DNA from: Myxacorys californica WJT36-NPBG1
GTDB lineage: Bacteria > Cyanobacteriota > Cyanobacteriia > Leptolyngbyales > Leptolyngbyaceae
Length of the DNA stretch: 64,000 nt
Direction of reading: 5' to 3'
Assembly: GCA_019359315.1 (NCBI GenBank)
Contig: JAHHHO010000001.1
Coordinates: forward strand, 1-64,000
Shown: positions 18,625 through 64,000 of the stretch, piece by piece
Position numbering within the stretch: position 1 is the stretch's first letter
Layout: the number at the start of each line of letters is the position of its first letter
The notes under the pieces: generated by a model
Seen by the model: only the letters and a program-made list of their open reading frames with translations
The model's database searches: none
Told to the model about the DNA's origin: nothing
Made by a program: the position numbers and the translations under genes

Positions 18625-18637
18625 GTTGGTGTAATGG

Positions 18638-19702: not shown

Positions 19703-19718
19703 TACTTGTTCTCCACTG

Positions 19719-20654: not shown

Positions 20655-20666
20655 AGCGACTGAAAT

Positions 20667-20698
20667 CCCCTCGCCCTTATTGAGGGGGGCAGGGGAGA
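20667..20698. repeat. G/C-rich hairpin repeat
   Basis: CCCCT plus GCCC (20667-20671 and 20673-20676) can pair with GGGC plus AGGGG (20687-20695). C-rich/G-rich hairpins of this type are scattered between genes in filamentous cyanobacteria. It sits between two co-directional genes and could trim or attenuate the operon transcript. Confidence 0.5.
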
Positions 20699-20773
20699 TC
20701 GAGTATTGTGGATTGGTTGACAGAGAGCCGCTTAACCACGATCGCAGAAGTGTTCGCATCCGATTTGATACCT

Positions 20774-21748: not shown

Positions 21749-21760
21749 TGGAGCACATCC

Positions 21761-27012: not shown

Positions 27013-27839
27013 ATGTAGAAAATTCTTTAGCAACCGCAGCAGCTCTCTCGCAGAGAATTGCGCTCACCACTCGTAAGCTCACTCTAGCCTACGATGGCAC
27101 GTCTATCATTTCAGACCTAGATCTGGCAATCCCTGCTGGAAAAATCACCGTTCTTGTTGGATCAAACGGGTGTGGTAAGTCTACGCTACTGCGCGGTTTA
27201 GCTCGGTTGCTTAAACCCCGTCATGGCACCGTTTACCTCGACAGTGCTTCTATCTTTAAGCTGTCTACCAAAGACGTTGCAAAACGGCTCGGTATTTTGC
27301 CCCAAGGACCCGTTGCTCCTGAAGGTTTGACGGTTCGAGAATTGGTAGCACAGGGACGCTATCCGCATCAAAACTGGCTGCAACAGTGGTCAAAAGAAGA
27401 TGAGTGGATGGTCGAGCAAGCCTTGTCGATTACTGACATGATTGAGCTAGCCGATCGCTCGCTTGATACTCTTTCTGGAGGTCAGCGCCAACGAGCTTGG
27501 ATCGCCATGTCACTGGCACAAAACACCGACATTCTCTTGCTCGATGAACCAACTACATTTCTTGATTTAGCGCATCAAATCGAAGTTCTAGATTTGCTCT
27601 ACGATTTGAATCAAACTCAAGGACGAACGATCGTAATGGTGCTGCACGACTTGAATCAAGCTTGTCGGTACGCCGATTGTTTGGTGGCGATCGCGCAAGG
27701 ACAGGTTGTAGCTCAGGGAGAACCTGCCCAGATCATGACGGAAGCGTTAGTGCGAGAGGTGTTTGGGCTAGAGAGCCGAATTATTCAAGATCCGGTTGTC
27801 GGAACACCACTCTGCATTCCTGTCGGTCGGCGTCGATAA
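27009..27839 (+). CDS. FecE-family iron-siderophore ABC ATPase
   Basis: A 276-residue cytoplasmic ATPase. Motifs: Walker [18 protein letters not shown]-loop [16 protein letters not shown], signature [19 protein letters not shown], Walker [14 protein letters not shown] and switch His [15 protein letters not shown]. It completes the importer with the two permeases, with which it overlaps by four bases. The first ~15 residues ([15 protein letters not shown]) precede the usual family start. The gene ends 12 bases from the convergent acylase gene, with no obvious terminator between them. Confidence 0.93.
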
Positions 27840-27851
27840 GTTGGCAATAGC

Positions 27852-30722: not shown

Positions 30723-30792
30723 CAACTATTTCTTACCGATAGCCAGATTGGCTGCTTCTAAAGTTCTGGGTTCATCAAGCAGGAAGACTTTA

Positions 30793-44103: not shown

Positions 44104-44104
44104 A

Positions 44105-47100: not shown

Positions 47101-47377
47101 CGTATTGGGGTTAGAGCAAGTAAGCATTGAAGATAACTTCTTCAACTTAGGAGGACATTCTCTTCTGGCGATGCAGCTTATATCCCGTGTGTGTAAACAG
47201 TTTGAGGTAGAGTTAAGTTTACCTGACTTCTTTGCTGCTGCTACCATTCGCGAATTGGCGGAAACGATCGAGGATGCCATTCTTGCTCAGTCCAATCCAG
47301 CCGATCTCGATCGACTGTTAGACCAACTAGAGGCAACGGATGAAACAGCAACAGCACAGAGCATTTTGACGTCATAA
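44105..47377 (+). CDS. NRPS module C-A-T, predicted beta-alanine specific
   Basis: About 1090 residues from the ATG at 44105; a TTG at 44090 lies inside the previous gene. The C domain opens with FYPLSPTQQGILFHTL and has HHILLDG at 143-149. The opening is the pattern of domains that accept a D-residue donor, fitting the epimerase upstream. The A-domain code reads V-D-W-V-V-S-L-A-D, nearly the known beta-Ala code VDWVISLAD, and A5 is YGSSEVAADVTW. The A8 motif deviates (GIRIETREIES). The T domain has Ser1019 (FFNLGGHSLLAM). The next gene is a decarboxylase that could make beta-alanine from aspartate. Confidence 0.92.
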   Translation: MGNRNLEDFYPLSPTQQGILFHTLCAPRSGMYYEQLSCTLNGKLDTKLFQQAWQALCDRHPILRTAFVWEGIKEPVQVVHRQVKLPWRELDWQAFSPREQQEQLEHFLKTDQEQGFDLTQAPLMRFALIRLDQQSYRFVWSHHHILLDGWSTPLLLKEVFADYQALCQGQSSSLPRPRPYRDYIAWIQQQDLSKARAFWQQRLQGFSTPTTIEQVLLKKVATDPDAADAQVSYDEQHIQLLTAKTRALQSFARQHQLTLNTLVQGAWALLLSRYSSEDDVVFGAAVSGRPPTLAGSEAMVGLFINTLPVRVQVQAAENLLPWLQQLQAQQVEARQYEYSPLVEVQGWSDVPRGLPLFESVVVFENYPINAALQTQTDLEIRDIRAFEKTNYPLTLIAFPGSELGLKVLYDSQRFASAAIARMLGHLQTLLEGMISHPNQCLSGLPILTEAEQHQLAEWNNTQVEYPNQCVHQRFEAQVERTPDAVALVYGDEQFTYRELNQRSNQLAHYLQTLGVTSEVLVGVCLERSPEMVMALLGILKAGGAYVPLDPAYPQERLSFMMNDAQMAVLLTRSYLADTLPEHSAKLVCLDTDWDKIRQASQQNLTENITADQLAYVLYTSGSTGTPKGAMGLHRGTVNRLHWNPYPFTSDDVCCQKTSLNFVDSVWEIFAPLLHGLRSVILPDSAVKDPLQFVQMLAEQQVTRLVLVPSLLRVLLETIPDLHDRLPKLKYWVSSGEALTIELCQRFRQQVPHCILINLYGSSEVAADVTWHDTSINHLSDFIPIGRAIANTQIYILDRHLQPVPIGVPGELHIAGAGLARGYWNRPELTAEKFISNPFQIQKEQSRLYKTGDLGCFLPDGEIKFLGRSDHQVKLRGIRIETREIESWIDQHPSVQESVVIAWEDSPGNSHLIAYVVPRLEQQQSVEPLNDVLRNFLSEKLPEYMVPISFILLEALPLTPNGKIDRRALPAPETHQRASTNSFVPPQTPIEVELANIWATVLGLEQVSIEDNFFNLGGHSLLAMQLISRVCKQFEVELSLPDFFAAATIRELAETIEDAILAQSNPADLDRLLDQLEATDETATAQSILTS

Positions 47378-47417: not shown

Positions 47418-49079
47418 GTGCAAAATCTGCGTGATGATATCCAATTCGCCGAACCCTCTAATCGCCTGATAGACGTAATGGCACTGTTTTCTCGTTCAGA
47501 AACCACTTTGTTAACTGAGCAAGAATTGGAAACTCGCGTTGACGCGATCGTTCAAGCGTTTGTCAATGCCAAAACCATCAGTACAGACATTGATTTAGCG
47601 ACGATCGCGGATCAGTTTACAGACAGTCAAATTCCACTGACTGCTTGTAACGTGGATCAGTATTTCAATGAACTAACCTCCAGCGTTATTTCCCACTCGA
47701 TTCATACTTCCTCACCACAATTTATTGGTCATATGACCACTGCTTTGCCTTACTTTGTGCGTCCTTTGGGGAAGCTCATGACGGCGATGAATCAGAATGT
47801 TGTCAAAGTGGAAACAGCTAAAACGTTCAGCTTCTATGAGCGTCAAGCTCTAGCAATGTTGCACCGATTAATTTACGGTTGTTCAGACGATTTCTACAGT
47901 CAACACATCCAAGCGAGTGAAAGTACGCTGGGCATTCTGACGACCGGGGGTACATTGGCAAACATCACGGCGCTGTGGTGCGCTCGGAATGTCGCGCTCA
48001 AGCCTCAAGCTGGTTTTGCGGGAGTGGAACAAGAGGGATTATTGGCTGCACTAGAGTTCTATGGCTACAAAGGCGCAGTGATCATTGGTTCTAGCTTGAT
48101 GCACTACTCGTTTGAGAAAGCAGCAGGACTGCTGGGAATTGGCGATCGTCATCTGCTCAAAATTCCGGTTGATCACAATCACCGCATGAATTTACAAGCG
48201 CTACGGAAAACGATTGCCGAGTGTCGCGATCGTAAGCAACTCATTTTGGCAATTGTTGGCATCGCAGGCAGCACGGAGTCTGGCAGTATTGATCCGTTGG
48301 CAGAAATAGCCGCGATCGCGCGGGAAGCCAAGGTTCACTTTCATGTGGATGCCGCTTGGGGCGGTCCGGTGCTATTTTCCGAACAACACGCTCATAAGCT
48401 AGCTGGTATTGAAGATGCCGATTCCGTCACGATTGACGGGCACAAGCAACTCTATTTGCCAATGGGAATTGGTATGGTGCTTTTGCGCAATCCTCACCTC
48501 GCTGCACTAATTGAAAAAAATGCTAGCTACACGGTTCGGAAAGACTCGATCGACTTGGGTAAGCGCTCGATCGAAGGCTCTCGTCCCGGCATGATTTTAT
48601 TTCTGCAAGCCGCTTTGAAGCTGATCGGTCAGCAGGGATATGCTGTACTGATCGATGCTGGAATTCAGAAGACGCAATATCTGGCAAATCAAATTCGTCA
48701 GCGCCCAGAATTTGAACTCTTGCTAGAACCCGAAATGAATCTGCTGCTGTACCGCTATATTCCAAAACCATTTCGGCAGAAGTTAACGACCAAAACACTG
48801 ACGGAAGTGGATCAGCGATCGATTAATGACTTTAACGAACTGCTGCAAAATGCTCAGCGTCAAGCGGGCAAAACCTTTATCTCCCGCACGACCTTATCTA
48901 CCAGTATCTACGGGCAACAACAAGCGATCGTGGCGCTACGAGCCGTGATTGTTAACCCCCTGAGTACGGAAGCAGACATTGATGCAGTTCTCGCCGATCA
49001 GCTCCAGACTGCTGCTCAATTACCTGTGGTTGTTCCCCCCGATCAGATGAGCTTGGAGGTTACTTGTGACTGCTACTAA
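47418..49079 (+). CDS. PLP-dependent group II decarboxylase, candidate aspartate 1-decarboxylase
   Basis: A 553-residue enzyme of the glutamate/aspartate/diaminobutyrate decarboxylase family. The start is GTG 47418 with AAGGAG nine bases before it. Motifs: the PLP-stacking region around TTGGTLANITALW, VHFHVDAAWGGP with the Asp that contacts the PLP nitrogen, and the Schiff-base Lys in VTIDGHKQLYLPMG. The C-terminal arginine-type substrate-binding region cannot be read reliably. Relatives include the aspartate decarboxylase PanP and 2,4-diaminobutyrate decarboxylase. Sitting directly after a beta-Ala-specific module, it most likely converts L-Asp to beta-alanine for that module. Production of a diamine is the main alternative. 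Confidence 0.88.
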   Translation: MQNLRDDIQFAEPSNRLIDVMALFSRSETTLLTEQELETRVDAIVQAFVNAKTISTDIDLATIADQFTDSQIPLTACNVDQYFNELTSSVISHSIHTSSPQFIGHMTTALPYFVRPLGKLMTAMNQNVVKVETAKTFSFYERQALAMLHRLIYGCSDDFYSQHIQASESTLGILTTGGTLANITALWCARNVALKPQAGFAGVEQEGLLAALEFYGYKGAVIIGSSLMHYSFEKAAGLLGIGDRHLLKIPVDHNHRMNLQALRKTIAECRDRKQLILAIVGIAGSTESGSIDPLAEIAAIAREAKVHFHVDAAWGGPVLFSEQHAHKLAGIEDADSVTIDGHKQLYLPMGIGMVLLRNPHLAALIEKNASYTVRKDSIDLGKRSIEGSRPGMILFLQAALKLIGQQGYAVLIDAGIQKTQYLANQIRQRPEFELLLEPEMNLLLYRYIPKPFRQKLTTKTLTEVDQRSINDFNELLQNAQRQAGKTFISRTTLSTSIYGQQQAIVALRAVIVNPLSTEADIDAVLADQLQTAAQLPVVVPPDQMSLEVTCDCY

Positions 49080-50625
49080 CCGTGCAGAGCGCCTTAAACA
49101 ACTTTCGCCACAAAAACGATTACTCCTGTTGCAAGCACTGCGACAACAGACCGCGAATGCTGAAACGACAACAACGATTTCGCGCCGCACTCCGTTCAGT
49201 CCTGCTCCGCTCTCGCTCGCTCAGCAACGCTTGTGGTTCCTCGCTCAGTTGGCTCCTGGCAATCCTTCTTACAACATTTCAGCAGCGGTGCGACTCCAGG
49301 GGCGCTTAGATGTAGCAGCTTTAGAACGTAGTTTCAATGAAGTAGTGCGACGGCATGAAGCACTACGCACTACTTTTGCAACCCTAAACGGTGAACCTGT
49401 ACAGGTTATTACTCCTACGCTTTCTTTCAAGCTCGCTGTTGTGAACTTGCAGAAACTACCGGAGCCGGATCGACAAGCAGAAGTAGAGCGATCGACGATT
49501 TCAGAAGCGCAATATCCTTTTGATCTAACGGCAGAACTACTCCTTCGGGTGACGTTGCTTCAACTGAGTGAAACCGAGTCTGTAGCACTACTGACGGTGC
49601 ATCACATTATCTCCGATGGCTGGTCGATCGCAGTCCTGGTGCAAGAAGTCGCAACGCTTTACCCAGCGTTTTGTGAGAACAAGTCATCTCCTCTTGCAGA
49701 CTTACCAATTCAATTTGCCGATTTCGCGGTTTGGCAACAACACTCTGATCAAATTGCAAAGTTAAAGAACCAGTTGCATTACTGGAAACAACAGTTGTCA
49801 GGTGCAGCATTGCTTCCCCCATTACCCACTGATCGCCCTCGATCTACCGCACCGACCTTTCGGGGAGCACAGCGATCGTTTCTGTTGCCTCTCGCTTTAA
49901 CTGACGCTCTAAAAGCGCTGAGTCAGCAAGCAGAAGCTACCTTGTTTATGACGCTTTTAACTGCATTTCAGTCCTTGCTGTACTGCTATACCCAGCAGAA
50001 CGATATTTTGGTAGGAACGCCGATCGCCAATCGTAATCTGCCTGAACTAGAGAACTTGATTGGCTGCTTTGTGAATACTCTAGTGCTAAGAACGCGACTT
50101 GATGCTGATTTCAGCTTTCGAGATGTGTTAGCGCGATCGTGTCAGGTTACTTTAGAAGCCTTTGCTCATGCTGATGTTCCGTTTGAGAAATTAGTGGAGG
50201 AATTGCAACCTCAGCGAAGTCTGAGCTACAATCCGCTATTTCAGGTTTGGTTTGCTTTGCACAACACGCCCTTGCCCAGCTTAGAGCTACCCGGACTTTC
50301 TATCAGTCCACTGGCGATCGAGAGCGGCACGACCCGACATGATTTGAGCCTACACCTGTGGGAAACGCCATCTGGATTGCAGGGAACATGGGAGTATAAA
50401 ACCGACTTATTTGATGCGGCGACCTGCGATCGATTGATCCAACATTTCACAGCTTTTCTGAACAAAATTGTCGCTGAACCTGATATCCAATTGAGTGAAT
50501 TAGCCGCGATGTTCGCCGAAGCCGAAAAACAGTATCGGCTTCAGTACGAACACGATATAAAAGCAGCAAACTTAAACAAACTCAAGTTCATGCGACGCAA
50601 AGCACAAAGTACATTGTCTGACTAA
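49066..50625 (+). CDS. stand-alone NRPS condensation domain
   Basis: A 519-residue protein holding one C domain only. GTG at 49066 overlaps the decarboxylase end by 14 bases and follows GGAGG. It opens with a docking helix (LKQLSPQKRLLLLQALRQQ) and FSPAPLSLAQQRLWFLAQLAPG. The catalytic HHIISDG is intact at 179-185, then DILVGTPIANRN and LSYNPLFQVWFAL. The short tail (NLNKLKFMRRKAQS) resembles the linker that joins a C domain to a hydroxylase in the fused protein at 54952. As the following synthetase starts with an inactive interface domain, this protein should form its peptide bond (beta-Ala to Asp). Confidence 0.9.
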   Translation: MTATNRAERLKQLSPQKRLLLLQALRQQTANAETTTTISRRTPFSPAPLSLAQQRLWFLAQLAPGNPSYNISAAVRLQGRLDVAALERSFNEVVRRHEALRTTFATLNGEPVQVITPTLSFKLAVVNLQKLPEPDRQAEVERSTISEAQYPFDLTAELLLRVTLLQLSETESVALLTVHHIISDGWSIAVLVQEVATLYPAFCENKSSPLADLPIQFADFAVWQQHSDQIAKLKNQLHYWKQQLSGAALLPPLPTDRPRSTAPTFRGAQRSFLLPLALTDALKALSQQAEATLFMTLLTAFQSLLYCYTQQNDILVGTPIANRNLPELENLIGCFVNTLVLRTRLDADFSFRDVLARSCQVTLEAFAHADVPFEKLVEELQPQRSLSYNPLFQVWFALHNTPLPSLELPGLSISPLAIESGTTRHDLSLHLWETPSGLQGTWEYKTDLFDAATCDRLIQHFTAFLNKIVAEPDIQLSELAAMFAEAEKQYRLQYEHDIKAANLNKLKFMRRKAQSTLSD

Positions 50626-50638
50626 TCGAGGACTAGCA

Positions 50639-51688
50639 ATGGCTATTTCAGAGTTTCAAAATTCCAACCTAAAAAAACTAGGGATGGCTAGCCGTAAAGC
50701 TGTTAGTCTCTCATCTGAAACATTAATCAAAACGAGTTATTTTCAATCAAAACATATGCTTCCTTTAATTGTTGAGCCAGCGATCGGAGGTCTAAATTTA
50801 ACAGCCTGGTCTCAGCAGCATCAAACTTGGATTGAAACTCGATTATTGCAGCATGGAGGCATTTTATTCCGAGGTTTTCAAGTTGCAGGAGCAACAGAAT
50901 TTGAGCAGTTTATACAAGCAAATTATGGAGAATTGCTGAACTACACTTTTCAATCAACTCCTCGCAGTCAAGTAAGCGGAAAGATTTATACCTCAACAGA
51001 ATATCCTGCGGATCAAGTCATTCCGTTACACAATGAGATGTCTTATACACGAACTTACCCGCTTAAAATTGCTTTCTGTTGTTTGCAAAAAGCAAATCAG
51101 GGCGGAGAAACAACGATCGCTGACAGCCGAAAAGTTTTTCAAAAAATCGATTCCACCATTCGGGAAACATTTATTCAAAAAAAGGTAATGTATGTGCGGA
51201 ATTATGGAGGCAATATTGATCTACCCTGGCAGACTGTTTTTAATACTCAGAACAAGTCTGAAGTAGAAAATTACTGCCGAAAAACAGGAATTGAGTTTGA
51301 GTGGAAAGCCAAGGATGGATTGAGAACACGACAAGTTTGTCAAGCGATCGCTCAACACCCTAAAACGTTAGAAACAGTGTGGTTTAATCAAGCTCATTTA
51401 TTCCATATTTCTAGTCTAGAACCTACCGTTCGCAATGAGCTTTTAGCCACCTTCAAACCAGAAGATTTGCCTCGTAATGTTTACTACGGTGATGGCTCTT
51501 CGATCGAAGATTCGGTTTTAGAAACAATTCGTCAGGTTTATCAGCAAGAAACCATCCTATTTCCTTGGCAAGAAGGAGATGTTCTTCTACTTGACAATTT
51601 ATTGTCTAGCCACGGGCGCACCCCTTTTTCAGGTTCACGCAAGGTCGTTGTGGGTATGGCTAAAGCATCTACACAGCAGGAGGTTTAG
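50639..51688 (+). CDS. stand-alone Fe(II)/2-oxoglutarate-dependent aspartyl beta-hydroxylase (TauD/SyrP-like)
   Basis: A 349-residue non-heme iron dioxygenase. GAGG precedes the ATG by seven bases. The iron ligands are the His-x-Glu of IPLHNEMSY (His131, Glu133) and the distal His of SSHGRTPFSGSRKVV (His325); Arg334 should bind 2-oxoglutarate. GGETTIADSRKVF is also typical. Members of this SyrP-like clade hydroxylate Asp (or His) held on an NRPS carrier domain. Here the partner is the next gene, an interface-A(Asp)-T protein. Product: beta-hydroxyaspartate, an alpha-hydroxycarboxylate iron ligand. Codon use is a little more A/T-rich than in the neighbours. Confidence 0.9.
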   Translation: MAISEFQNSNLKKLGMASRKAVSLSSETLIKTSYFQSKHMLPLIVEPAIGGLNLTAWSQQHQTWIETRLLQHGGILFRGFQVAGATEFEQFIQANYGELLNYTFQSTPRSQVSGKIYTSTEYPADQVIPLHNEMSYTRTYPLKIAFCCLQKANQGGETTIADSRKVFQKIDSTIRETFIQKKVMYVRNYGGNIDLPWQTVFNTQNKSEVENYCRKTGIEFEWKAKDGLRTRQVCQAIAQHPKTLETVWFNQAHLFHISSLEPTVRNELLATFKPEDLPRNVYYGDGSSIEDSVLETIRQVYQQETILFPWQEGDVLLLDNLLSSHGRTPFSGSRKVVVGMAKASTQQEV

Positions 51689-51694
51689 GTAGAA

Positions 51695-54600
51695 ATGAAA
51701 GATTTACAAACAGGAATTAGCGAAGGATTTCAACTTTCTCCCCAGCAAAAATGGGTATGGCGATCGCAGCAGCTTGATCCTACTTTTCCTTATCGAGTTC
51801 AAGGGTCGATTTTGATTGAGGGTCATCTCAATTTAGACCTTTTCAAGCAAGCTTTTCAATGTGTGGTCGATCGTCATGAAATTCTGCGTACTCGGTTTGT
51901 TTGTCTAATGGGAATGACAATCCCGCTGCAAATCATCCAAAATGCAAATCAATTTTCGATCGTTGAACACGATCTGAGCCATTTATCACCTTCCGAGCAA
52001 CTAATTCAGATTGAATCAAAATGGCATGAAATAGGCCAACAATCTTTCGATTTCGAGCAAGGACTAATTGGATTTTCATCTCTCATTACGTTGTCTTCAG
52101 CCCGACACATTTTGTTGATCAATCTATCTGCATTGAATGCGGACAGTTCAACATTGGTGAACTTATTACAAGGCGTCTGTGATACTTATTCAGAATGTTT
52201 AGAAGACAAATCAACGCGAGATCCATTGCAATATGCCGATATTGCCCAATGGCAAACTGAGTTATTAGAATCAGACGAGTCTCAGGCTGGAAAGGTATTC
52301 TGGCAGAAGCTAAAATTCAATACTTCAGACATTCCTAAATTGCCTTTAGAACAGAAAGAAGCTTCGCAACACAGTTTTAATCCTCAGTGTTTGAGTTTAG
52401 AAATCAGCAAGCCACTAGAGCAAAAAATCATCGCACTGTCGCAATCTGAGAATGTGCCAGTTTCAACGATTCTTCTAGCGTGTTGGAAAACACTCATTTG
52501 GAGGTTTAATCACCAATCTCATCTTGTGATTGGAATTGCCGTCAATGGAAGAAATTATGAAGAGCTAATAACAGCGTTTGGGCTGTTATCTAAGACAATT
52601 CCATTAGCAACTAATTTTGCGACTGAGCTAGAGTTTAGTCAGGTATTGCAGCAAGTTCATCAATCTGTTCAAGACGCTAAGCAGTGGCAGGAATATTTTG
52701 AGTGGAAAGACGTAATTCAAACCGAAGATGCTCAAGAAATAGAATTTCTTCCGATTAGTTTTGATTTTCAAGAATTACCTAAAAAACGTTGTCAGAATAA
52801 TTTGGCATTTTCCATTCAAAAACTGTGCAGCTATATCGATCGATTCAACCTAAAACTCTTCTGTACTCAACAAAATGATTCTCTAAACGTAGAGTTTCAC
52901 TATGATGCTAATGCATTCAACGAAACTGATATTCAGCGTTTATCAGAGCATTTCGCCTCTCTGCTAGAAAGCGCTGTTACTCATCCAAAAAACTCGATCG
53001 CTCAGTTAAATTTATTAAACGATCGTCACCGTCATCAACTGTTAGTTGAATTCAATCAAACTCAAGCTAATTTTGTACCTTACCAGTGTGTACATCAGCG
53101 ATTTGAAGCACAGGCAGAACAAACGCCTGATCAGATTGCTATTGTCTTTGAAGATCAACGGCTCACTTACCGTGAACTTAACTGCCGCGCTAATCAGCTT
53201 GCTCATTATTTGCAAAAGCTGGGCGTAAACTCAGAAGTTGTGGTTGGGATTTGCTGCGATCGCTCTCTCGATTCGATTGTTGCCCTACTCGGTATCCTCA
53301 AAGCTGGAGGTGCTTACTTACCTCTTGATCCCGCAATGCCAACAGAGCGTCGCACACGCGTGTTGCAAGACGCTAAAGCAACTGTGTTACTGACCCAACA
53401 ATCTTTGGTAAATCAATTTGGAAACTTCACACAGCCGATTGTTTGCCTAGATCGTGATTTCGACTTGATTACTCAGGAGAGTTCACAAAATTGTATTAGT
53501 CAAACCACAAGCGAAAATTTGGCTTACGTTATCTACACATCGGGTTCTACAGGTGCTCCTAAAGGCGTCGCGATCGAGCATCGACAACTGCTGAACTACT
53601 TAGACGGGATTCTGCACCAACTAGCGTTACCCAAAGGTGCCCATTTTGCGATGGTTTCTACTTTCGCTGCCGACTTGGGAAATACAGCTATCTTTCCGGC
53701 GCTGTGTACTGGAGGCTGTTTGCATATAATTTCTCAGCAACGATCGATTGATCCAGAAGTGCTAGCGCAGTATTGCTGCAATCATTCCATTGACTGTCTC
53801 AAAATTGTTCCCTCTCATTTGTCTGCACTGTTAAGTTGTACTTATCCAGAAGCAATTTTGCCGCGTCAACGCCTAATTTTAGGAGGCGAAGCGTTGAGTT
53901 GGGACTTGGTGAAAACAGTGCAGGAGTTGGCACCCGATTGCCGCATCTTTAACCATTACGGACCGACTGAAGCCACGATCGGGGTTCTGACCTATGAAGT
54001 AAAACTAGACCAACCTACCCATATTTCTAAAACTGTTCCTTTAGGTCGTCCCCTTGCCAACACCCAGATTTACATTCTGGATGCCGAGCTTCAACCTGTC
54101 CCTGTTGGTGCTGTGGGAGAGCTATACATCGGGGGTAACAGTCTAGCGCGAGGCTATCTTAACCAACCGAAACTGACGGCAGAAAAATTCATTCCTCATC
54201 CCTTCATGTCTGGTACAGAAGCGCGTCTCTATAGAACCGGAGATCTAGCCCGCTACTTACCCGATGGAAATATTGAATTCTTAGGGCGAATCGATCATCA
54301 GGTGAAGATTCGGGGATTCCGTATTGAACTTGGCGAAATTGAAGCCGTACTAAAGCAGCATTCGATCGTAAAAGAAGCAGTGGTTGCTGTCAAAGAAGAT
54401 ACGAGTGGTGAGTTGCGTTTGGTTGCCTATGTACTACCTCATGAGCAGGAGATGCTAGACAAATGCGAGTTGCATCGTTGGCTGAGTGAGAAACTGCCAG
54501 AGTATATGATGCCATCTGCATTTGTGATGCTGAAAACCTTGCCATTAACGGCGAATGGTAAGCTCGATCGCCAAGCACTGCCAGTCCCCGATTTTACTCA

Positions 54601-54955
54601 CACAACCTTAGAAAATTTTGTTGCTCCCCGCAATCCGATCGAGCAAACCTTAGCTGATATTTGGGCAGAAGTTCTCAAATTGGATCAAGTTGGTATTTAC
54701 GACAACTTTTTTGAGTTGGGTGGGCATTCACTACTGGCAACTCAAGTTGTTTCTAGACTGCGGCAAACCTTTCAAGTAGAGTTGCCTCTTCATCACTTAT
54801 TTGAGGCAACGACAATAGCTGATTTAGCAGTTGTAATTGTCCAAAAGCTAACAGAGCAAACAGATGAAACAATGCTAGCGCAAATGCTAGCAGAACTAGA
54901 AGAACTGTCAGAAGAAGACGCCCAAACTGTTTTGGTGCAAGGAGTGCAGTCATGA
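51695..54955 (+). CDS. NRPS interface-A-T module, predicted Asp specific
   Basis: A 1086-residue synthetase. The first ~450 residues have the condensation-domain fold, but the catalytic HHxxxDG is replaced by SALNADS (145-151): both His are lost. This matches the non-catalytic interface domains described for siderophore NRPSs that recruit a separate beta-hydroxylase. The A domain has the code D-L-T-K-I-G-H-I-G, nearly the classic Asp code DLTKVGHIG, with the unusual STFAADLGNTAIF at A4. The T domain is FFELGGHSLLAT (Ser1012), followed by a short acidic tail (ELEELSEEDAQTV). The lone C domain and hydroxylase just upstream supply bond formation and hydroxylation. The stop overlaps the next ATG (ATGA). 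Confidence 0.92.
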   Translation: MKDLQTGISEGFQLSPQQKWVWRSQQLDPTFPYRVQGSILIEGHLNLDLFKQAFQCVVDRHEILRTRFVCLMGMTIPLQIIQNANQFSIVEHDLSHLSPSEQLIQIESKWHEIGQQSFDFEQGLIGFSSLITLSSARHILLINLSALNADSSTLVNLLQGVCDTYSECLEDKSTRDPLQYADIAQWQTELLESDESQAGKVFWQKLKFNTSDIPKLPLEQKEASQHSFNPQCLSLEISKPLEQKIIALSQSENVPVSTILLACWKTLIWRFNHQSHLVIGIAVNGRNYEELITAFGLLSKTIPLATNFATELEFSQVLQQVHQSVQDAKQWQEYFEWKDVIQTEDAQEIEFLPISFDFQELPKKRCQNNLAFSIQKLCSYIDRFNLKLFCTQQNDSLNVEFHYDANAFNETDIQRLSEHFASLLESAVTHPKNSIAQLNLLNDRHRHQLLVEFNQTQANFVPYQCVHQRFEAQAEQTPDQIAIVFEDQRLTYRELNCRANQLAHYLQKLGVNSEVVVGICCDRSLDSIVALLGILKAGGAYLPLDPAMPTERRTRVLQDAKATVLLTQQSLVNQFGNFTQPIVCLDRDFDLITQESSQNCISQTTSENLAYVIYTSGSTGAPKGVAIEHRQLLNYLDGILHQLALPKGAHFAMVSTFAADLGNTAIFPALCTGGCLHIISQQRSIDPEVLAQYCCNHSIDCLKIVPSHLSALLSCTYPEAILPRQRLILGGEALSWDLVKTVQELAPDCRIFNHYGPTEATIGVLTYEVKLDQPTHISKTVPLGRPLANTQIYILDAELQPVPVGAVGELYIGGNSLARGYLNQPKLTAEKFIPHPFMSGTEARLYRTGDLARYLPDGNIEFLGRIDHQVKIRGFRIELGEIEAVLKQHSIVKEAVVAVKEDTSGELRLVAYVLPHEQEMLDKCELHRWLSEKLPEYMMPSAFVMLKTLPLTANGKLDRQALPVPDFTHTTLENFVAPRNPIEQTLADIWAEVLKLDQVGIYDNFFELGGHSLLATQVVSRLRQTFQVELPLHHLFEATTIADLAVVIVQKLTEQTDETMLAQMLAELEELSEEDAQTVLVQGVQS

Positions 54956-57900
54956 GTCAATTGAGTGGGCGTATTGCGGGGCTATCTCCGGCTAAACGAG
55001 AATTATTGCTGCAAAAGCTAAACCAGAAAAAAGATAATACAGGTGTTTCTATTCGTCCACTCAGCCGCGAAACCAACACCTTTCCGTTGTCGTTTGCTCA
55101 GCAGCGCTTGTGGTTTATCGATCAGCTCGATCCGGGCAATCCAACGTACCAAATTCCAGCGATCGTGCGACTGACAGGCAAGTTAGATGTTGCTGCATTA
55201 GAGCAAAGTTTCAATGCACTAGTGCAACGACACGAAATATTACGAACAACGTTTATTACGATCGATGGGCAACCCGTTCAAAATATTGCTCCAACACTAA
55301 AATTAACGATTCCAGTCACCGATTTACAATCGCACCCTGAACCTGAACAGGAAGTACAGCGATTGGCGATCGTCGAAGCGCAAACTTCCTTTGATTTGGC
55401 TCAAGCACCGCTGCTACGAGTTCAATTACTGCATCTGAACAGTTCTGCTTATGTCTTGCTGTTCACCCTACACCACATCATTTGCGATGGCTGGTCGATG
55501 GGAATTTTTCTGCAAGAATTGGCATCTTTGTATCAAGCGATCGTGACTAGAAAGCCTGCATCGTTGCCTGACTTGCCAATTCAGTATGCTGATTTTGCCG
55601 CTTGGCAGCAGCAGTGGCTACAAGGAGAGGTACTCGAAACACATCTTGACTACTGGAAACAGCAGCTTTCGGGAGAGCTTCCGATTCTGAACTTGCCGAC
55701 CGATCGACCTCGATCTGCTGTGCAAACTTATCGGGGTGGCGTGGTCAATTTTGTCTTGCCACAACCCCTGATTGCGGCTCTAACGCAACTCAGCCAGCAG
55801 CAAGGCGCAACCTTGTTTATGACGCTTCTCGCTGCTTTCAAAGTTCTACTTTATTGCTACACCGGGCAGGAAGACATTCTTGTAGGGTCTGCGATCGCTA
55901 ACCGCAACCGCGCCGAAACTGAGAGTCTGATTGGATTGTTCGCCAATACCCTAGTCCTGAGGTCAGATTTATCCCGCAATCCTACCTTTCGCGAATTGTT
56001 GCAACGAGTGCGGACAGCGACGCTAGGAGCTTATAACCATCAAGATCTTCCTTTCGAGAAGCTCGTCGAAACTCTGCAACCCGAGCGCGATCTGAGCCGC
56101 AATCCTTTATTTCAGGTGTTGTTTGCTCTGCGCAACATCCAGATGCCTACCTTGGAACTACCCGAACTGATGCTGAGCAGTCAGGACTTAGAGCGCACTA
56201 CGTCTCGGTTTGATCTGTCTCTGAATCTGTGGGAGTCACCCGAAGGTTTGAGCGGCGCATTTGAGTATAGCCAAGACTTGTTTGATGTCGGCACTGTGCC
56301 GCGAATGGTTGGGCATTTCCAAACTTTGCTAGAAGGAATTGTTGCTGACCCCGATCGCTCGATCGTAACCTTGCCTCTGCTAACCCAATCAGAACAGCAA
56401 CAATTGGTAGAGTGGAACCCGCCTTCAATTAAAAATCTACCGAAACACTGTCTGCATCACTTGTTTGAAGCACAAGCAGCAAAATCACCAGAGGCAATTG
56501 CCGTTGTCTATGAAAACCAACAACTCACCTACCGAGAACTGAATACACGTGCGAATCAACTTGCACGTCATTTGCAAAAGTTGGGTGTCGCTCCAGATGT
56601 TTTGGTGGGCATCTGTGTGGAAAGATCGCTCGAAATGCTGATCGGTCTGCTTGGCATTCTCAAGGCGGGTGGTGCTTATGTGCCTTTAGATCCGTCCTAT
56701 CCTCAAGCAAGACTGACATTTATGCTGGAAGACTCACATATTCCAGTTCTCGTGACCCAGCACAACTTGTTAGAGAAGCTTCAACCCCAGGCGGCGCAGG
56801 TGGTCTGTTTGGATACCGATTGGGAGACGATTGCGATCGCCTCACAGGAAAACCTGGATAGTGGCGTTACAGACAGACATCTGGCTTACACCATTTACAC
56901 ATCAGGCTCTACTGGCAAACCCAAAGGTGTGCAAATTGAACATCGGGCACTGACTAATTTCTTGCACTCCATGCGTCAGGAGCCAGGTTTAACCGCTGAT
57001 GATGTGCTGCTTGCCGTAACGACGATCTCCTTTGACATTGCGGCGCTGGAACTGTACCTTCCATTAATCGTTGGCGCTCGCGTGGTGTTAGTCAGCCGTG
57101 ACGTTGCCTCAAATGCAGCCCAACTTTCTAGAACTCTTCAGCAATCTAATGTCACTGTCATGCAGGCAACACCAGCAACTTGGCAACTGTTGTTAGCGGC
57201 AGGATGGCAGGGTGATCGACGATTGAAACTGCTCTGCGGCGGCGAAGCCCTACCTAGAGAATTGGCAAACCAACTGCTCAAGAGATGTCAGTCTCTCTGG
57301 AACATGTATGGACCAACGGAAACCACCATCTGGTCAGCCATTCATCCAGTAGAGCCTGGAGATGGTTCAGTGGTTGTGGGGCGAGCGATCGCCAACACCC
57401 AAATTTATATCTTGAACCAGCATTCCCATCGTGACAGAAACGTCTTTAACCCTGTCCCTGTTGGTGTGCCCGGAGAGGTTTACATCGGTGGGGAGGGTTT
57501 AGCACGTGGCTACTTAAATCGCCCAGACTTGACGGCTGAGCGCTTCATCTCTTTCCAAATTGACAACTCCAAATCAATTCGTCTCTACAGAGCAGGGGAT
57601 CTGGGTCGTTACCGATCTGATGGCACGATCGAGGTGATTGAACGAATTGATCATCAAGTCAAGATTCGAGGTTTCCGAATTGAGCTAGGTGAGATTGAGA
57701 CTGTATTGGAACAGCATCCAGAGATCAAACAAGCTGTTGTCATCGCACGAGAGGACAATCCGGGTAATCAGCGTCTCGTGGCTTATGTGGTTCCAACTTC
57801 AGTAGTTGAGTGCCAAGCGACACCTCTGATTCCAAATCTACGTTGCTTCCTAAAGGCGAAGTTGCCACATTATATGGTGCCTGCGGCGTTTGTGCTTCTA

Positions 57901-60672
57901 GACGTGCTTCCCCTTAACGCGAATGGCAAGCTCGATCGCCGCGCTCTGCCTGCACCCAATATTAGTTCTGATCTAGAAAGCAATTTCGTTGCTCCTCGCA
58001 CTGCTATTGAGGCAACAATCGCTGACATTTGGACAGAAGTGCTCAATCTCTCTCAACCTCCATCAGTTCAGGCTAACTTCTTTGAATTGGGCGGGCATTC
58101 TCTGTTAGCAACGCAAGTTGTTTCTCGCCTGCGAACGACCTTTCAAGTTGAGTTACCCCTTCGTCGTTTGTTTGAGGCACCAACGATCGCAGACTTAGCT
58201 ATCGCCATTTCTGATATTGCACAAAGCTCAGAAGCTCCGATTGAGCGAGTTTCACAGTCAGCAGATTTACCCCTTTCGTTTGCTCAAGAACGGCTGTGGT
58301 TCTTGGATCAACTCAAACCCGGCGATCCAGCGTATAACATTCCCGCAGCAGTCCGGCTACAGGGTGTTTTGAATGTAACCGCGCTGGAGCAAAGTCTCAA
58401 CACGATCGTGCAACGGCATGCCGTCCTGCGAACCAGCTTTGTAATACGAGGCGGACAACCCATTCAAGCGATCGCAGAAACAGTGTCGTTACCGTTGCCT
58501 ATCGTAGATTTGCAAAATCTGAAAGGGACTGAGCAAGAGCAGCGCATTCAACAATTAGCAATGCAAGAGGCTCAGACTTCGTTTGATCTCGCTCAAGCTC
58601 CCTTGCTGCGTGTCACCTTGCTCCAACTTGGTGAAACCGAATACGTCGTGTTGTTTACGATGCATCACATCATCTCCGATCGCTGGTCGATGGGGGTACT
58701 AATTCGAGAACTGACGACGCTGTACTCCGCCTATTGCACAGGTAAGTCGATCGTCCTGCCCGAACTGCCAATCCAGTATTCAGACTTTGCTGTTTGGCAG
58801 CGACAGCACTTACAAGGTGAAGTGTTAGACCAGCAGTTGAGCTACTGGCAACAGCAGTTAGGTGGTAAACTTCCGGTCTTACGGCTCCAGACTGAGCAAT
58901 CCTCTGGTCAATCAGCTTGTTCAACTGGTCAAAGCGAAACTCACTCGTTTGTTCTGTCTCCCACTGTTTCTGAAGCCCTAAATCGTTTGAGTCGTGAAAC
59001 AGGCGCGACTTTGTTCATGACGCTGCTGGCAGCCCTCAAAACCCTGCTTTACCGCTATACCGGGCAGGAAGATGTGGTGGTTGGAACCGATGTTGCCAAT
59101 CGCAATCGGGCTGAAACAGAAGCTTTGATTGGATTTTTCATCAATATTTTGGTCTTACGAACCAGTTTGCAGGGCAATCCCAGTTTTCGAGAGTTGTTAG
59201 ATCGGGTGCGAGAGGTCGCCTTGGGAGCCTATGCTCACCAAGATTTACCCTTCAGTAAAATCGTCGAGCATCTGCAACCAGAGCGTCACCTCAACCAAAC
59301 GCCTCTGTTTCAGGTGTTGTTTGTTCTACAAAATGCACCGATGCCTCCTTTGGAGTTACCAGGGCTGACCCTAACTCCGCTAGAAGCTGAGAATCATGCT
59401 TCCAAGTTTGATCTGGTGCTGTTTATGGTAGAAACCCCTGAGGGATTGGCTGGCACTTGGAAATACAATCGGGAGTTTTGCGATCAAGCCACTCTCACCC
59501 GGTTCTCCAAGCACTTTGAAACCCTTCTAGATAGCATTGTGACTCAACCCGACAGCCGCCTCAACACTTTAGAAATGCTGACTGAAACTGAAAAAATCGC
59601 AAAAATGGCTGAACAAAAACAACGGGAAGCATCAAATCGGCAAAAATTCAACTTTGTCAAGCCTAAAGCAGTGAGCCTACCGACAACCGAATTTGTCAAA
59701 ACTGAAGAGCTACAACCCGGACAATCTCTGCCGCTCCTCGTTCAACCCAATGTTGGAGAGCTTGATTTGGTGGACTGGGCAAAATCCAACCGAGCCTGGA
59801 TCGAAACTCAGTTATTCAAACACGGGGGACTACTGTTCCGAGGTTTCAACACTCACTGTGTGCAGGATTTTGAGAACTTTGCTCAAGCAATTTGTCCAGA
59901 ATTATTTGGCGAATATGGGGATCTTCCTCGCGAAGGTGTGGGTGGCAAAGTCTACAGTTCTACGCCATATCCAGCCGACAAAGCGATTCTGTTTCATAAC
60001 GAAAGCTCTCACATGCATCGTTATCCCCTCAAAATCTGGTTTTTCTGTGTTCAGCCAGCCCAGCAGGGCGGAGAAACCCCGATCGTCGATTGTCGTAAGC
60101 TCTACCAATTGCTCAATCCGAAGCTGAGAGAAAAATTTGCCCAACAACAACTGATGTATGTTCGCAACTACACTGATGGTCTAGATGTGAGTTGGCAAGA
60201 TTTCTTTCACACGAGCGATCGTGCTGTTGTTGAGCAATACTGTCATCAGCATGGCATTGAGTTTGAATGGACAGACCACGGTTTAAGAACTCGCGAGGTG
60301 CGGCAAGCTATTGCTCAACATCCTAAAACTGGGGACTGGGTATTCTTCAATCAAATCCAGTTGCACCACATTGCTTATCTCGATCGCTCGGTTCGCGATT
60401 CTCTTTTGGCTTTATTTGGAGAAGCCAATCTACCCCGCCATGTTTACTACGGCGATGCTACCCCAATTGAAGATTCAGTGATTGAAGAAATTAGTGCATT
60501 GTATCAACAAGCTACGATCGCATTTCCCTGGCAAGCAGGCGATGTGTTGATGCTAGACAACATGCTGACCGCCCACGGGCGCAACCCCTATGTAGGACCA
60601 CGCAAGATTGTCGTGGCAATGGGAGAACTCATCAGTAATCCATCGATCGCGTTATCCAAAACCGCAGTGTGA
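54952..60672 (+). CDS. NRPS C-A(Gly)-T-C fused to a C-terminal aspartyl beta-hydroxylase
   Basis: A 1906-residue protein. After a docking helix (GLSPAKRELLLQKLNQKK), the first C domain has HHIICDG (174-180). The A domain code D-I-L-Q-L-G-M-I-W matches Gly (DILQLGLIW). T has Ser1050. The second C domain carries HHIISDR (1238-1244): the His and Asp remain but the motif Gly is Arg. After a ~40-residue linker (about 1545-1585), a TauD/SyrP-like domain runs to the end. It has iron ligands HNE (His1682, Glu1684) and distal His1875 in TAHGRNPYVGPRK. No A domain follows the second C domain, so C2 and the hydroxylase must serve the next protein, whose own first domain is inactive. Confidence 0.93.
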   Translation: MSQLSGRIAGLSPAKRELLLQKLNQKKDNTGVSIRPLSRETNTFPLSFAQQRLWFIDQLDPGNPTYQIPAIVRLTGKLDVAALEQSFNALVQRHEILRTTFITIDGQPVQNIAPTLKLTIPVTDLQSHPEPEQEVQRLAIVEAQTSFDLAQAPLLRVQLLHLNSSAYVLLFTLHHIICDGWSMGIFLQELASLYQAIVTRKPASLPDLPIQYADFAAWQQQWLQGEVLETHLDYWKQQLSGELPILNLPTDRPRSAVQTYRGGVVNFVLPQPLIAALTQLSQQQGATLFMTLLAAFKVLLYCYTGQEDILVGSAIANRNRAETESLIGLFANTLVLRSDLSRNPTFRELLQRVRTATLGAYNHQDLPFEKLVETLQPERDLSRNPLFQVLFALRNIQMPTLELPELMLSSQDLERTTSRFDLSLNLWESPEGLSGAFEYSQDLFDVGTVPRMVGHFQTLLEGIVADPDRSIVTLPLLTQSEQQQLVEWNPPSIKNLPKHCLHHLFEAQAAKSPEAIAVVYENQQLTYRELNTRANQLARHLQKLGVAPDVLVGICVERSLEMLIGLLGILKAGGAYVPLDPSYPQARLTFMLEDSHIPVLVTQHNLLEKLQPQAAQVVCLDTDWETIAIASQENLDSGVTDRHLAYTIYTSGSTGKPKGVQIEHRALTNFLHSMRQEPGLTADDVLLAVTTISFDIAALELYLPLIVGARVVLVSRDVASNAAQLSRTLQQSNVTVMQATPATWQLLLAAGWQGDRRLKLLCGGEALPRELANQLLKRCQSLWNMYGPTETTIWSAIHPVEPGDGSVVVGRAIANTQIYILNQHSHRDRNVFNPVPVGVPGEVYIGGEGLARGYLNRPDLTAERFISFQIDNSKSIRLYRAGDLGRYRSDGTIEVIERIDHQVKIRGFRIELGEIETVLEQHPEIKQAVVIAREDNPGNQRLVAYVVPTSVVECQATPLIPNLRCFLKAKLPHYMVPAAFVLLDVLPLNANGKLDRRALPAPNISSDLESNFVAPRTAIEATIADIWTEVLNLSQPPSVQANFFELGGHSLLATQVVSRLRTTFQVELPLRRLFEAPTIADLAIAISDIAQSSEAPIERVSQSADLPLSFAQERLWFLDQLKPGDPAYNIPAAVRLQGVLNVTALEQSLNTIVQRHAVLRTSFVIRGGQPIQAIAETVSLPLPIVDLQNLKGTEQEQRIQQLAMQEAQTSFDLAQAPLLRVTLLQLGETEYVVLFTMHHIISDRWSMGVLIRELTTLYSAYCTGKSIVLPELPIQYSDFAVWQRQHLQGEVLDQQLSYWQQQLGGKLPVLRLQTEQSSGQSACSTGQSETHSFVLSPTVSEALNRLSRETGATLFMTLLAALKTLLYRYTGQEDVVVGTDVANRNRAETEALIGFFINILVLRTSLQGNPSFRELLDRVREVALGAYAHQDLPFSKIVEHLQPERHLNQTPLFQVLFVLQNAPMPPLELPGLTLTPLEAENHASKFDLVLFMVETPEGLAGTWKYNREFCDQATLTRFSKHFETLLDSIVTQPDSRLNTLEMLTETEKIAKMAEQKQREASNRQKFNFVKPKAVSLPTTEFVKTEELQPGQSLPLLVQPNVGELDLVDWAKSNRAWIETQLFKHGGLLFRGFNTHCVQDFENFAQAICPELFGEYGDLPREGVGGKVYSSTPYPADKAILFHNESSHMHRYPLKIWFFCVQPAQQGGETPIVDCRKLYQLLNPKLREKFAQQQLMYVRNYTDGLDVSWQDFFHTSDRAVVEQYCHQHGIEFEWTDHGLRTREVRQAIAQHPKTGDWVFFNQIQLHHIAYLDRSVRDSLLALFGEANLPRHVYYGDATPIEDSVIEEISALYQQATIAFPWQAGDVLMLDNMLTAHGRNPYVGPRKIVVAMGELISNPSIALSKTAV

Positions 60673-60686
60673 GAGAGGTTAAAATC

Positions 60687-63600
60687 ATGCAAGTTCAAGA
60701 AAGAGTGATCAACGGTTTTCACCTGTCTCCGCAGCAGAAAAGGCTTTGGGGATTGCAGCAAGATAACCCTACTTATCGAGTGCAGTGTGCCATTCGGCTA
60801 GAAGGGTTGCTTCAGATTGAGACGTTAAAGGCGGCGTTGGTGCAGGTCTGCGATCGTCATGAAATTCTTCGCACCACATTTCAACGTCCGGCAGGTATTA
60901 AAACACCGCTTCAGGTGATTGCAGAAACTAGCACATTTGACTGGCAACAAGTCGATTTGCAGGGCTACGACGCAGAGCAACAAACCCAGCAAATCGAGAC
61001 TTTGTTTCAACAAGAGCAACTTATCCCGTTCAATTGGCAACATTCGCTACTGCGTGGTTCGCTTCTTGTCTTATCTCAGCAGCAGCACATTTTGCTCCTG
61101 AGTCTACCGGCGCTTTGTGCTGACAGTTGGAGCATTCCACGACTAGTTGAAGCAGTGTGTCAGTCATACAAAGCATGTCTGCAAGGAACAGAACTACAGG
61201 ATGAGGTAGTGCAGTATGTTCAATTTGCTGAATGGCGAAATCAACTTTTAGAAGAGGACACAGAGGAGCAGACCTATTGGCAGAAGCATAAATTTTCCTC
61301 TTTAACGGCGTTGAGGCTGCCGTTTGAGAAAAAGTCGCGAACAAACTCGCCAAATTTTGTGATCGACTCTTTAGAGTGGCAGATTCAACCTGAAATTGTT
61401 GCTAAGATTTCAGCTCTTGCCAAATCAACGGATACTACACCTTCTAGTTTCTTGTTGGCATGTTGGCAAATTCTACTGTCGCGCTTTGTTGGACAGCCGG
61501 ACTTGACGATCGGTGTTGCTATGAATGGGCGCAAATATGAGGAGCTAGAAACGACGATCGGGCTACTAGCCCAATATCTGCCGCTCTCTTGTTCTTTAGA
61601 AAATCTTTCTTTTAAGGAACTGTTGCAACAAACTCATGCTTCTATCCAGGAAGTCGAGCAATGGCAGGAGTATTTTACCTGGGATAATTGGGCAGAAAGC
61701 GCTCAGCTAGGACAATTGTCCTTTGGGTTCGACTTTCAGCAGCAGACCACTCGATTTTCAGCAGGTGAGGTTTCCTTTAAGCTTGATAAACAGTTTGCTT
61801 ACACCGATTGCTTCAAACTCAAACTCTCCTGCATTCAACGCGAAGAAATGCTAATCGCTACCGCTGACTATGATGTGAACCTGTTTGATGCAGAAGATAT
61901 TCATCGTTTAATTGAGCATTTTCAAATACTAGCGGCTAGCGCGATCGCTGCTCCTGAAACATCCATTGATCGGCTAGAAATTCTCAGCGATTGTGCTCAT
62001 CATCAACTATTAGTTGAGTTCAACCAAACTCAGACTAATTTTCCCAAAGACCAATGCATTCACCAATTATTTGAGGCACAGGTAGAACGCACTCCTGATC
62101 AAGTTGCGTTAGTGTTTGAAGATCAGCAACTAACCTACGCAGAACTGAATGCTCGTGCCAATCAACTTGCCCACTACTTACAAACCTTAGGCATTCAGCC
62201 TGATGAATTAGTCGGCATTTATCTTGATCGCTCATTAGATACGATCATCAGTCTACTTGGCATTCTCAAAGCAGGAGCCGCCTATCTACCGCTAGATCCT
62301 GCTTTGCCGCTTGAAGCCTTAGCTAGCAGAGTGGAGGATGCTCGACCGATCGCGTTGCTAACACAAGAAAGATTGCTTGAGTCAGTTCAATCTGGTTTAG
62401 GCTCCACTCTCCAGATTATCTGCTTGGATCAAGACCAGAATAAGATTGCTCAACATAGCACCTCCAATCTTCCCAACACCGCTACTCCTGAAAATCTAAT
62501 TTATGTAATTTACACCTCAGGTTCTACGGGTCAGCCCAAGGGAGTTGCAGTTGAGCATCGGAATTTACTCAATTACCTCTACGGGATTCTGGGGCGGTTG
62601 TCTTTGTCGGCAGGTGCGCACTTTGCCACTGTCTCTACACTTGCGGCTGATTTAGGCAACACAGCTATCTTTCCAGCGCTGTGTACAGGAGGATGTTTGC
62701 ATGTGGTATCGAGCGATCGTATCTCTGACCCTCAAGCCTTGGCTGACTACTGTCATCGTCACCCAATTGACTGTCTCAAGATTGTTCCTTCTCATTTGCA
62801 AGCGCTGTTGATCTCTCCTCAGACAGCAGCAATTCTGCCCCGTCAATGTCTTGTTTTAGGAGGCGAAGCTGCCAGTTGGGAACTGATCAAAACCATTCAG
62901 AAATACGCACCTAACTGTCAAATCCTCAACCATTATGGACCGACTGAAGCAACCGTGGGAGTTCTGACTTATGCTGTCCCTCAAGGTCAGGATGAACCTG
63001 AGACTTCGATCGTTCCTCTAGGGCGAGCGATTGCCAACACTCAAATCTATCTCCTCGATTCACACCAGCAACCTGTCCCGATCGGTGTTAAGGGTGAACT
63101 ATACATTGGAGGAGACTCGCTCACGCGGGGATATCTCGATCGTCCTGACCTCACGCAAGAAAAGTTCATTTCCAATCCATTCAATCCTCAACCAGGAGCA
63201 CGTTTATATAAAACCGGAGACTTTGCTCGTTACCTCCCGGATGGAACGGTTGACTTCCTCGGTCGCACAGACAACCAAGTCAAGATCAGAGGTTATCGAA
63301 TTGAGCTAGAAGAAATTGAGGCAGTGTTGCAGCAATGTGTTGAAATCAAGCAAGTTGTGGTCACTCAATATCAGGATGCAACTTCAAACAAACGTTTGGT
63401 TGCTTACATCGTGTCTCAGCCAGGATGCTCTCCTAGCACAACAGAATTACGCCATTTCATGCAGCAGAAATTGCCAGAATACATGGTGCCTTCCGCCTTT
63501 GTGTTTCTGAAGTCTCTGCCCTTGACTCAGAACGGCAAAGTCGATCGTCAAGCCTTACCCGCACCCCAGCAAGAACAGAGCAGCTCAGCAACAACTTTTG

Positions 63601-64000
63601 TGGCTCCTCGAACACCAATTGAGGCAGTTCTGGCGGATATTTGGGCAGATCTGTTAAAAGTGAGTCGTATCGGCATTCACGACAGCTTTTTCGAGTTGGG
63701 TGGACATTCGCTATTAATGACCCAACTCTTAGTTCGAGTTCGAGAGACATTTCAAGTCGATCTCCCTCTGAGTCGTTTATTTGTCACGCCGACTGTAGCA
63801 GGACTAGCGAAGCAAATTGAGTATAGTCGTTTAGGAGAAAATGGAGATGCGATCGTTCCTAAGGTCGATCTGGTTGCAGAAGCGACGCTAGATCCTGCTA
63901 TTCGTCCAACGACTCCATTTACTTGGGCTACAACAAAACCCACTCGAATTTTCCTAACCGGAGCAACGGGTTTCTTAGGTGCCTTCTTGCTCTGCGAACT
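60687..64000 (+). CDS. NRPS interface-A(Asp)-T-reductase, cut by the window end
   Basis: The ATG at 60687, eight bases after GAGG, opens a frame that stays open to the window end (about 1104 codons seen). The first domain is condensation-like but has PALCADS (141-147) in place of HHxxxDG, the same loss as in the other interface module. The A domain code D-L-T-K-V-G-H-V-G indicates Asp. T has FFELGGHSLLMT (Ser1008). After the linker LDPAIRPTTP, the NAD(P)-binding motif FLTGATGFLGAFLL (near 1089-1102) begins a thioester-reductase domain. Reductive release as an aldehyde or alcohol is expected. A thioesterase cannot be ruled out further downstream. The hydroxylase for this module is the domain fused to the preceding protein. 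Confidence 0.9.
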   Translation, partial: MQVQERVINGFHLSPQQKRLWGLQQDNPTYRVQCAIRLEGLLQIETLKAALVQVCDRHEILRTTFQRPAGIKTPLQVIAETSTFDWQQVDLQGYDAEQQTQQIETLFQQEQLIPFNWQHSLLRGSLLVLSQQQHILLLSLPALCADSWSIPRLVEAVCQSYKACLQGTELQDEVVQYVQFAEWRNQLLEEDTEEQTYWQKHKFSSLTALRLPFEKKSRTNSPNFVIDSLEWQIQPEIVAKISALAKSTDTTPSSFLLACWQILLSRFVGQPDLTIGVAMNGRKYEELETTIGLLAQYLPLSCSLENLSFKELLQQTHASIQEVEQWQEYFTWDNWAESAQLGQLSFGFDFQQQTTRFSAGEVSFKLDKQFAYTDCFKLKLSCIQREEMLIATADYDVNLFDAEDIHRLIEHFQILAASAIAAPETSIDRLEILSDCAHHQLLVEFNQTQTNFPKDQCIHQLFEAQVERTPDQVALVFEDQQLTYAELNARANQLAHYLQTLGIQPDELVGIYLDRSLDTIISLLGILKAGAAYLPLDPALPLEALASRVEDARPIALLTQERLLESVQSGLGSTLQIICLDQDQNKIAQHSTSNLPNTATPENLIYVIYTSGSTGQPKGVAVEHRNLLNYLYGILGRLSLSAGAHFATVSTLAADLGNTAIFPALCTGGCLHVVSSDRISDPQALADYCHRHPIDCLKIVPSHLQALLISPQTAAILPRQCLVLGGEAASWELIKTIQKYAPNCQILNHYGPTEATVGVLTYAVPQGQDEPETSIVPLGRAIANTQIYLLDSHQQPVPIGVKGELYIGGDSLTRGYLDRPDLTQEKFISNPFNPQPGARLYKTGDFARYLPDGTVDFLGRTDNQVKIRGYRIELEEIEAVLQQCVEIKQVVVTQYQDATSNKRLVAYIVSQPGCSPSTTELRHFMQQKLPEYMVPSAFVFLKSLPLTQNGKVDRQALPAPQQEQSSSATTFVAPRTPIEAVLADIWADLLKVSRIGIHDSFFELGGHSLLMTQLLVRVRETFQVDLPLSRLFVTPTVAGLAKQIEYSRLGENGDAIVPKVDLVAEATLDPAIRPTTPFTWATTKPTRIFLTGATGFLGAFLLCE

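Follow-up and report, generated by a model that had tools for sequence, protein, structure and literature searches.

The 64,000-nucleotide stretch of cyanobacterial DNA analyzed in this study, hereafter the window, very probably carries a cyanochelin-type cluster with two beta-hydroxyaspartate units, each served by a hydroxylase that an interface domain would recruit, and these units represent two ancient lineages rather than recent duplicates. The first-pass annotation of this DNA had read them as a within-operon example of the fission or fusion of one tailoring unit. This story of a fusion in progress is replaced here by one in which two old Asp-hydroxylating lineages travel together in cyanobacterial siderophore clusters.

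Both units lie in a tightly packed operon on the + strand. ORF and Pfam calls agreed with the two-unit architecture proposed earlier, including its ORFs, coordinates and domain order, and the succession C, hydroxylase, interface-A(Asp)-T is the same in both units. The features are as follows:

49066..50625, + strand: unit 1 lone condensation (C) protein with an intact HHIISDG motif (PF00668, E=1e-106)
50639..51688, + strand: H1, the unit 1 stand-alone Fe(II)/2-oxoglutarate aspartate beta-hydroxylase with a TauD fold (PF02668, 6e-47)
51695..54955, + strand: unit 1 interface-A(Asp)-T protein (P0007, C-like/A/T; Pfam and A code)
51731..53044, + strand: interface domain I1, a condensation fold without HHxxxDG and with SALNADS in its place
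54952..60672, + strand: C-A(Gly)-T-C-hydroxylase protein (P0008, C-A-T-C-TauD; Pfam and A code)
58270..59595, + strand: C domain of unit 2 (HHIISDR), joined to the hydroxylase that follows it
59725..60627, + strand: H2, the unit 2 C-fused aspartate beta-hydroxylase domain (Pfam and tree)
60669..63998, + strand: unit 2 interface-A(Asp)-T-reductase (P0009, Pfam), cut by the window end
60720..62012, + strand: interface domain I2, with PALCADS in the HHxxxDG place

The start of the last gene had to be revised: it opens at GTG 60669, with a 4-bp overlap with its neighbor, and the position 60687 given previously is the first internal ATG. This gene extends beyond the window to a stop near contig position 65082 (L001:670-5082), and its C-terminal reductase, also beyond the window end, is of the thioester-reductase type (NAD_binding_4, E=4e-70). 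Alignment of the A domains gave the codes DLTKIGHIG after H1 and DLTKVGHVG after H2, both of which we take to be Asp-type, and DILQLGMIW between the two Asp modules, presumably Gly-type. No model specific for these hydroxylases or interface domains was found in NCBIfam.

I1 and I2 match the condensation family over their entire length (E of 6e-32 to a solved C-A protein), lack HHxxxDG and each adjoin an Asp A domain and a partner hydroxylase, as interface domains do. The motif that replaces HHxxxDG is itself conserved, as [PS]A...[AG]D. Among the 88 cyanobacterial units in which the domain following the hydroxylase was present (84 after dropping four entries that occurred twice), this domain was an HH-less C-like domain in 85, made up of 59 of the 62 in a first set and all 26 in a further set; three hydroxylases had no such domain after them. 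In the comparison set of 175 other C-like domains, all but 7 retain HHxxxDG. The layout of a hydroxylase followed by an HH-less domain is far beyond chance, and the idea that the two form a recurring functional pair is thereby upheld.

According to the mechanism that we propose, the A domain would load Asp onto T of the interface-A-T protein. The interface domain, occupying the usual position of a C domain, would recruit the hydroxylase encoded just upstream and bring it near T, where the hydroxylase would act on T-bound Asp. The C domain whose coding sequence precedes that of the hydroxylase would then join the growing chain to the hydroxylated residue. We infer this order of reactions, as we do the recruitment role, the latter because of the interface-domain literature: the concept, as far as it is cited in PMC12230676, covers HH-less C-like domains.

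Alternatively, the HH-less domains could be C domains that have degenerated or serve only structurally, maintaining the C-A platform and recruiting no hydroxylase. Their alignment across the full condensation fold would suit such a role, the contact between hydroxylase and interface domain is a deduction in our scheme, and a mirror-tree comparison in the stand-alone class gave a hydroxylase-interface correlation (0.35) no higher than that of C with hydroxylase or C with interface domain. However, a purely structural role accounts poorly for domains that stand beside hydroxylases in nearly all units and are rare elsewhere, for the conservation of the substitute motif, and for a published concept that, in the part cited, covers just such domains. 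We therefore consider it improbable and retain recruitment by the interface domain. The wider proposal that C, hydroxylase and interface domain form one working assembly is weakened: in the stand-alone class, C is of several types, and the partnership that is conserved there is that of hydroxylase and interface(-A).

Both hydroxylases have the TauD fold, the 2-His-1-carboxylate triad and the 2-oxoglutarate-binding Arg of siderophore Asp beta-hydroxylases; H131/E133/H325, assigned from the family as metal ligands, and R334, assigned likewise, are invariant and kept in H1 and H2. Their activity is predicted from sequence, and a His-type code occurs in some stand-alone units elsewhere, so one of the two might be inactive or act on another residue, leaving a single beta-hydroxyaspartate. 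This possibility, to which we assign somewhat less weight still than to a structural role, is opposed by the retained HxE...H ligands and Arg, by the Asp-type code in both following A domains, and by cyanochelin B, which is made with the same pair of classes and has two beta-hydroxyaspartates (PMC12628792). In the units surveyed, all 38 fused hydroxylases were followed by an Asp-type code, as were most of the stand-alone ones. Four units of other cyanobacteria (L065, L060, L056 and L064) have DSALIAEVW after a stand-alone hydroxylase, a code that, to our reading, resembles His codes; units of this type may make beta-hydroxyhistidine.

Phylogenetic analysis separated the two units at every domain examined. 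The hydroxylase tree was built by a careful search from 75 homologues. H2 fell within a fused-only clade of 29 rows (support 100/99), of which one is interrupted by a stop, and is 77% identical over the tree columns to fused hydroxylases of other cyanobacteria. H1 grouped with the stand-alone enzymes of three other genomes (G195, G099 and G201; 99/88 for the four together) and is 72% identical, likewise over the tree columns, to stand-alone hydroxylases of other cyanobacteria; the deep branching order of the stand-alone enzymes is poorly resolved. Forcing H1 and H2 together cost 195 log units (AU p 1.5e-12). The C and interface trees came from quick searches with SH-aLRT values only. In the interface tree, 27 rows of domains following fused hydroxylases formed one moderately supported clade (SH-aLRT 85) and another, likewise moderate, held 30 rows (94), 29 of which follow stand-alone enzymes. 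The C domains preceding fused hydroxylases formed a clade of 29 rows (97). Those preceding stand-alone hydroxylases were scattered over several C types, some within the post-E type, and C has therefore been exchanged in the stand-alone class.

The paired domains thus lie in distant clades, the opposite of the sister pairing for which the phylogenies had been suggested as a check, and the notion of fission or fusion within this operon has to be given up. A recent duplication inside the operon with subsequent splitting or fusion of one copy, suggested by the identical domain order, the like Asp-type codes and the 50% identity of H1 and H2, is scarcely credible and is rejected by the AU test on the hydroxylases and by the three trees, in which the hydroxylases, C domains and interface domains of the window each group with sequences from other genomes instead of with their counterparts in the operon, while the two-unit layout recurs in many families. 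The closest relatives of the window hydroxylases are in genomes of other families (G195, G099 and G201), and a genome of the same genus (G288) has a cyanochelin B-like cluster. These placements hint at horizontal exchange of the whole cluster or at differential loss.

One stand-alone and one C-fused unit were present in 19 of the 27 matching cyanobacterial genomes of the first sample, as well as in Leptolyngbya boryana plasmid pLBX and in AP017310. In a rooted tree of 97 rows with a proteobacterial outgroup (quick search), the fused clade was surrounded by stand-alone enzymes. As judged by this tree, the stand-alone form is the ancestral state and the main fused clade derives from one old C-hydroxylase fusion, whereas about three more isolated fusions outside it (L067, L095 and L100) appear to be independent, a number read from the tree. 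In the fused proteins, a linker of some 42 residues (124-139 nt in most cases) connects C to the hydroxylase. Pairwise distances among C, hydroxylase, interface and A domains correlated at 0.79-0.85 in fused units and at only 0.32-0.51 in stand-alone units, which indicates that fused units were inherited as a block and stand-alone units were shuffled. The fused hydroxylase, whose interface domain lies at the start of the following protein, had been taken for an intermediate architecture. It belongs instead to an old and widespread clade, and such a fusion is already published for cyanochelin B (PMC12628792, CcsFGH/CcsI; re-read in AP017310).

One possible fission was seen (L115), at a locus where the assembly is fragmented. 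A second candidate, in G332 (L059), in which C and hydroxylase as well as interface and A domains seem split, was rejected as a functional fission: in-frame TAA stops interrupt an otherwise continuous coding sequence, both within the fused hydroxylase and close to where an A domain begins (G332:C1:1109500-1129400; 15960-16120 and 18390-18470). This locus looks like a decaying siderophore cluster.

The comparative rule that emerges is C and hydroxylase followed by interface-A-T, in which the interface domain always begins a new gene. No fusion of hydroxylase and interface domain on one polypeptide was found in the 387 and 390 genomes searched, two samples that overlap; a scan of named genomes yielded only seven loci. 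A 2,327-aa ORF in G606 that had seemed to be such a fusion proved to be another C-hydroxylase fusion, and a 1,455-aa frame in G101 fits stop read-through between the hydroxylase and interface-A-T. The separation is notable because fusion of C with hydroxylase arose about four times. It is conceivable, though we think it rather doubtful, that the hydroxylase-interface contact of fused units also serves to dock consecutive synthetase proteins to each other. A single contact would then present one carrier domain to hydroxylase and C domain alike, and this would explain why hydroxylase and interface domain never share a polypeptide in 85 units from many families. AlphaFold2 modeling of the fused C-hydroxylase stretch from six sequences gave a poor model (mean pLDDT 49, pTM 0.40). 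With this rule, the recruitment role of the interface domain can be tested directly, and so can the stereochemistry of each class.

The remainder of the window is consistent with siderophore biosynthesis and comprises these features:

17317..29978: siderophore handling genes
27852-29978: penicillin-amidase-type acylase
30748..39369, + strand: fatty-acyl-AMP ligase-ACP-C-A-T-Cy-A-T lipoinitiation protein, the operon start
39382..44103, + strand: C-A-T-E module, code DTEDIGTIV (Lys-like)
44090..47377, + strand: C-A-T module, code VDWVVSLAD (beta-alanine-type)
47418..49079, + strand: PLP decarboxylase close to aspartate 1-decarboxylase PanP (TIGR03799)

The handling genes encode an MFS protein, two periplasmic binding proteins, a ferredoxin-like protein, a TonB-dependent receptor, two FecCD permeases, an ABC ATPase and the acylase. 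A TonB gene is also located upstream of the operon, where the MFS protein is an exporter. The acylase has a counterpart beside the L. boryana cluster (L034) and may shorten the acyl chain. In the lipoinitiation protein, one module has a Val-like code and the other is of the Cy type and probably loads Cys; the Lys-like, beta-alanine-type and Val-like calls are presumptive assignments from published codes. The decarboxylase scored 605.6 bits against TIGR03799, just under the cut-off of 606.1, and likely supplies beta-alanine. Its gene directly follows the module with the beta-alanine code, which suggests a dedicated in-cluster supply of this building block to the siderophore.

From the order of modules, the predicted product would be acyl-Val?-thiazoline-D-Lys?-beta-Ala-(beta-OH-Asp)-Gly-(beta-OH-Asp), freed by reduction. 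Because H2 shares a clade with the fused enzyme of cyanochelin B, L-threo configuration is expected at unit 2. No E domain follows unit 1, and the next C domain is an ordinary one, not of the post-E type. If the rule quoted in PMC12628792 holds, by which self-standing hydroxylases give 3R, the unit 1 residue would be the rarely seen L-erythro form; if it does not, L-threo would be expected there too. This is only a prediction, because H1 and the stand-alone enzyme of cyanochelin B are not clearly orthologous in the trees.

Clusters of the cyanochelin type combine FAAL or PKS lipoinitiation, NRPS modules, two Asp modules each with a TauD hydroxylase, and siderophore receptor and transport genes in the neighborhood. 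All of these are present in and around the operon, and the cluster, judged by its gene content, is a further example of this known lipopeptide siderophore biosynthesis. In the cyanochelin B cluster of Leptolyngbya sp. NIES-3755 (AP017310), as in the window, one Asp beta-hydroxylase is C-fused and the other stand-alone, the protein after each of them opens with an HH-less C-like domain-A-T (L080 and L033), and siderophore uptake genes lie nearby. That cluster differs in several respects: it has PKS genes, its stand-alone unit is followed by an E domain, and its fused unit comes first. In the window, the stand-alone unit comes first, Lys-like and beta-Ala modules are present, neither unit is followed by an E domain, and unit 2 carries a reductase. 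The cyanochelin B study already reports two hydroxylases, one fused to an NRPS and one self-standing, each lying ahead of its own Asp module; the word "interface" is absent from the text of that paper (PMC12628792). The generalization that an interface domain follows the fused hydroxylase is made here and goes beyond that paper. Two cyanobacterial hydroxylase clades, CyanoBH_Asp1 and CyanoBH_Asp2, have been defined from cyanochelin clusters (PMC12971057) and, compared by description only, are probably the two lineages seen here.

Plasmid pLBX of L. boryana (NZ_AP014640) has the same order of hydroxylase, I-A-T, C-A-T-C-H and I-A-T, with gene lengths nearly equal to those in the window and with an acylase and a TonB receptor likewise adjacent. 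However, the C domain of its unit 1 is part of the upstream synthetase, the stand-alone hydroxylase belongs to another subclade with the variant code DATKVGEVG, and the reductase profile is unmatched.

Reitz et al. reportedly distinguished, in 2019 in PNAS, IbetaH_Asp/interface-domain systems from TbetaH_Asp systems. As far as citing papers describe them, those systems share with the present units a hydroxylase acting on carrier-bound Asp and an HH-less condensation-like partner. In contrast to these classes, as so described, the cyanobacterial fused enzymes are joined to C yet have an interface domain at the start of the following protein. "Fused" and "interface-partnered" are therefore not alternatives here.
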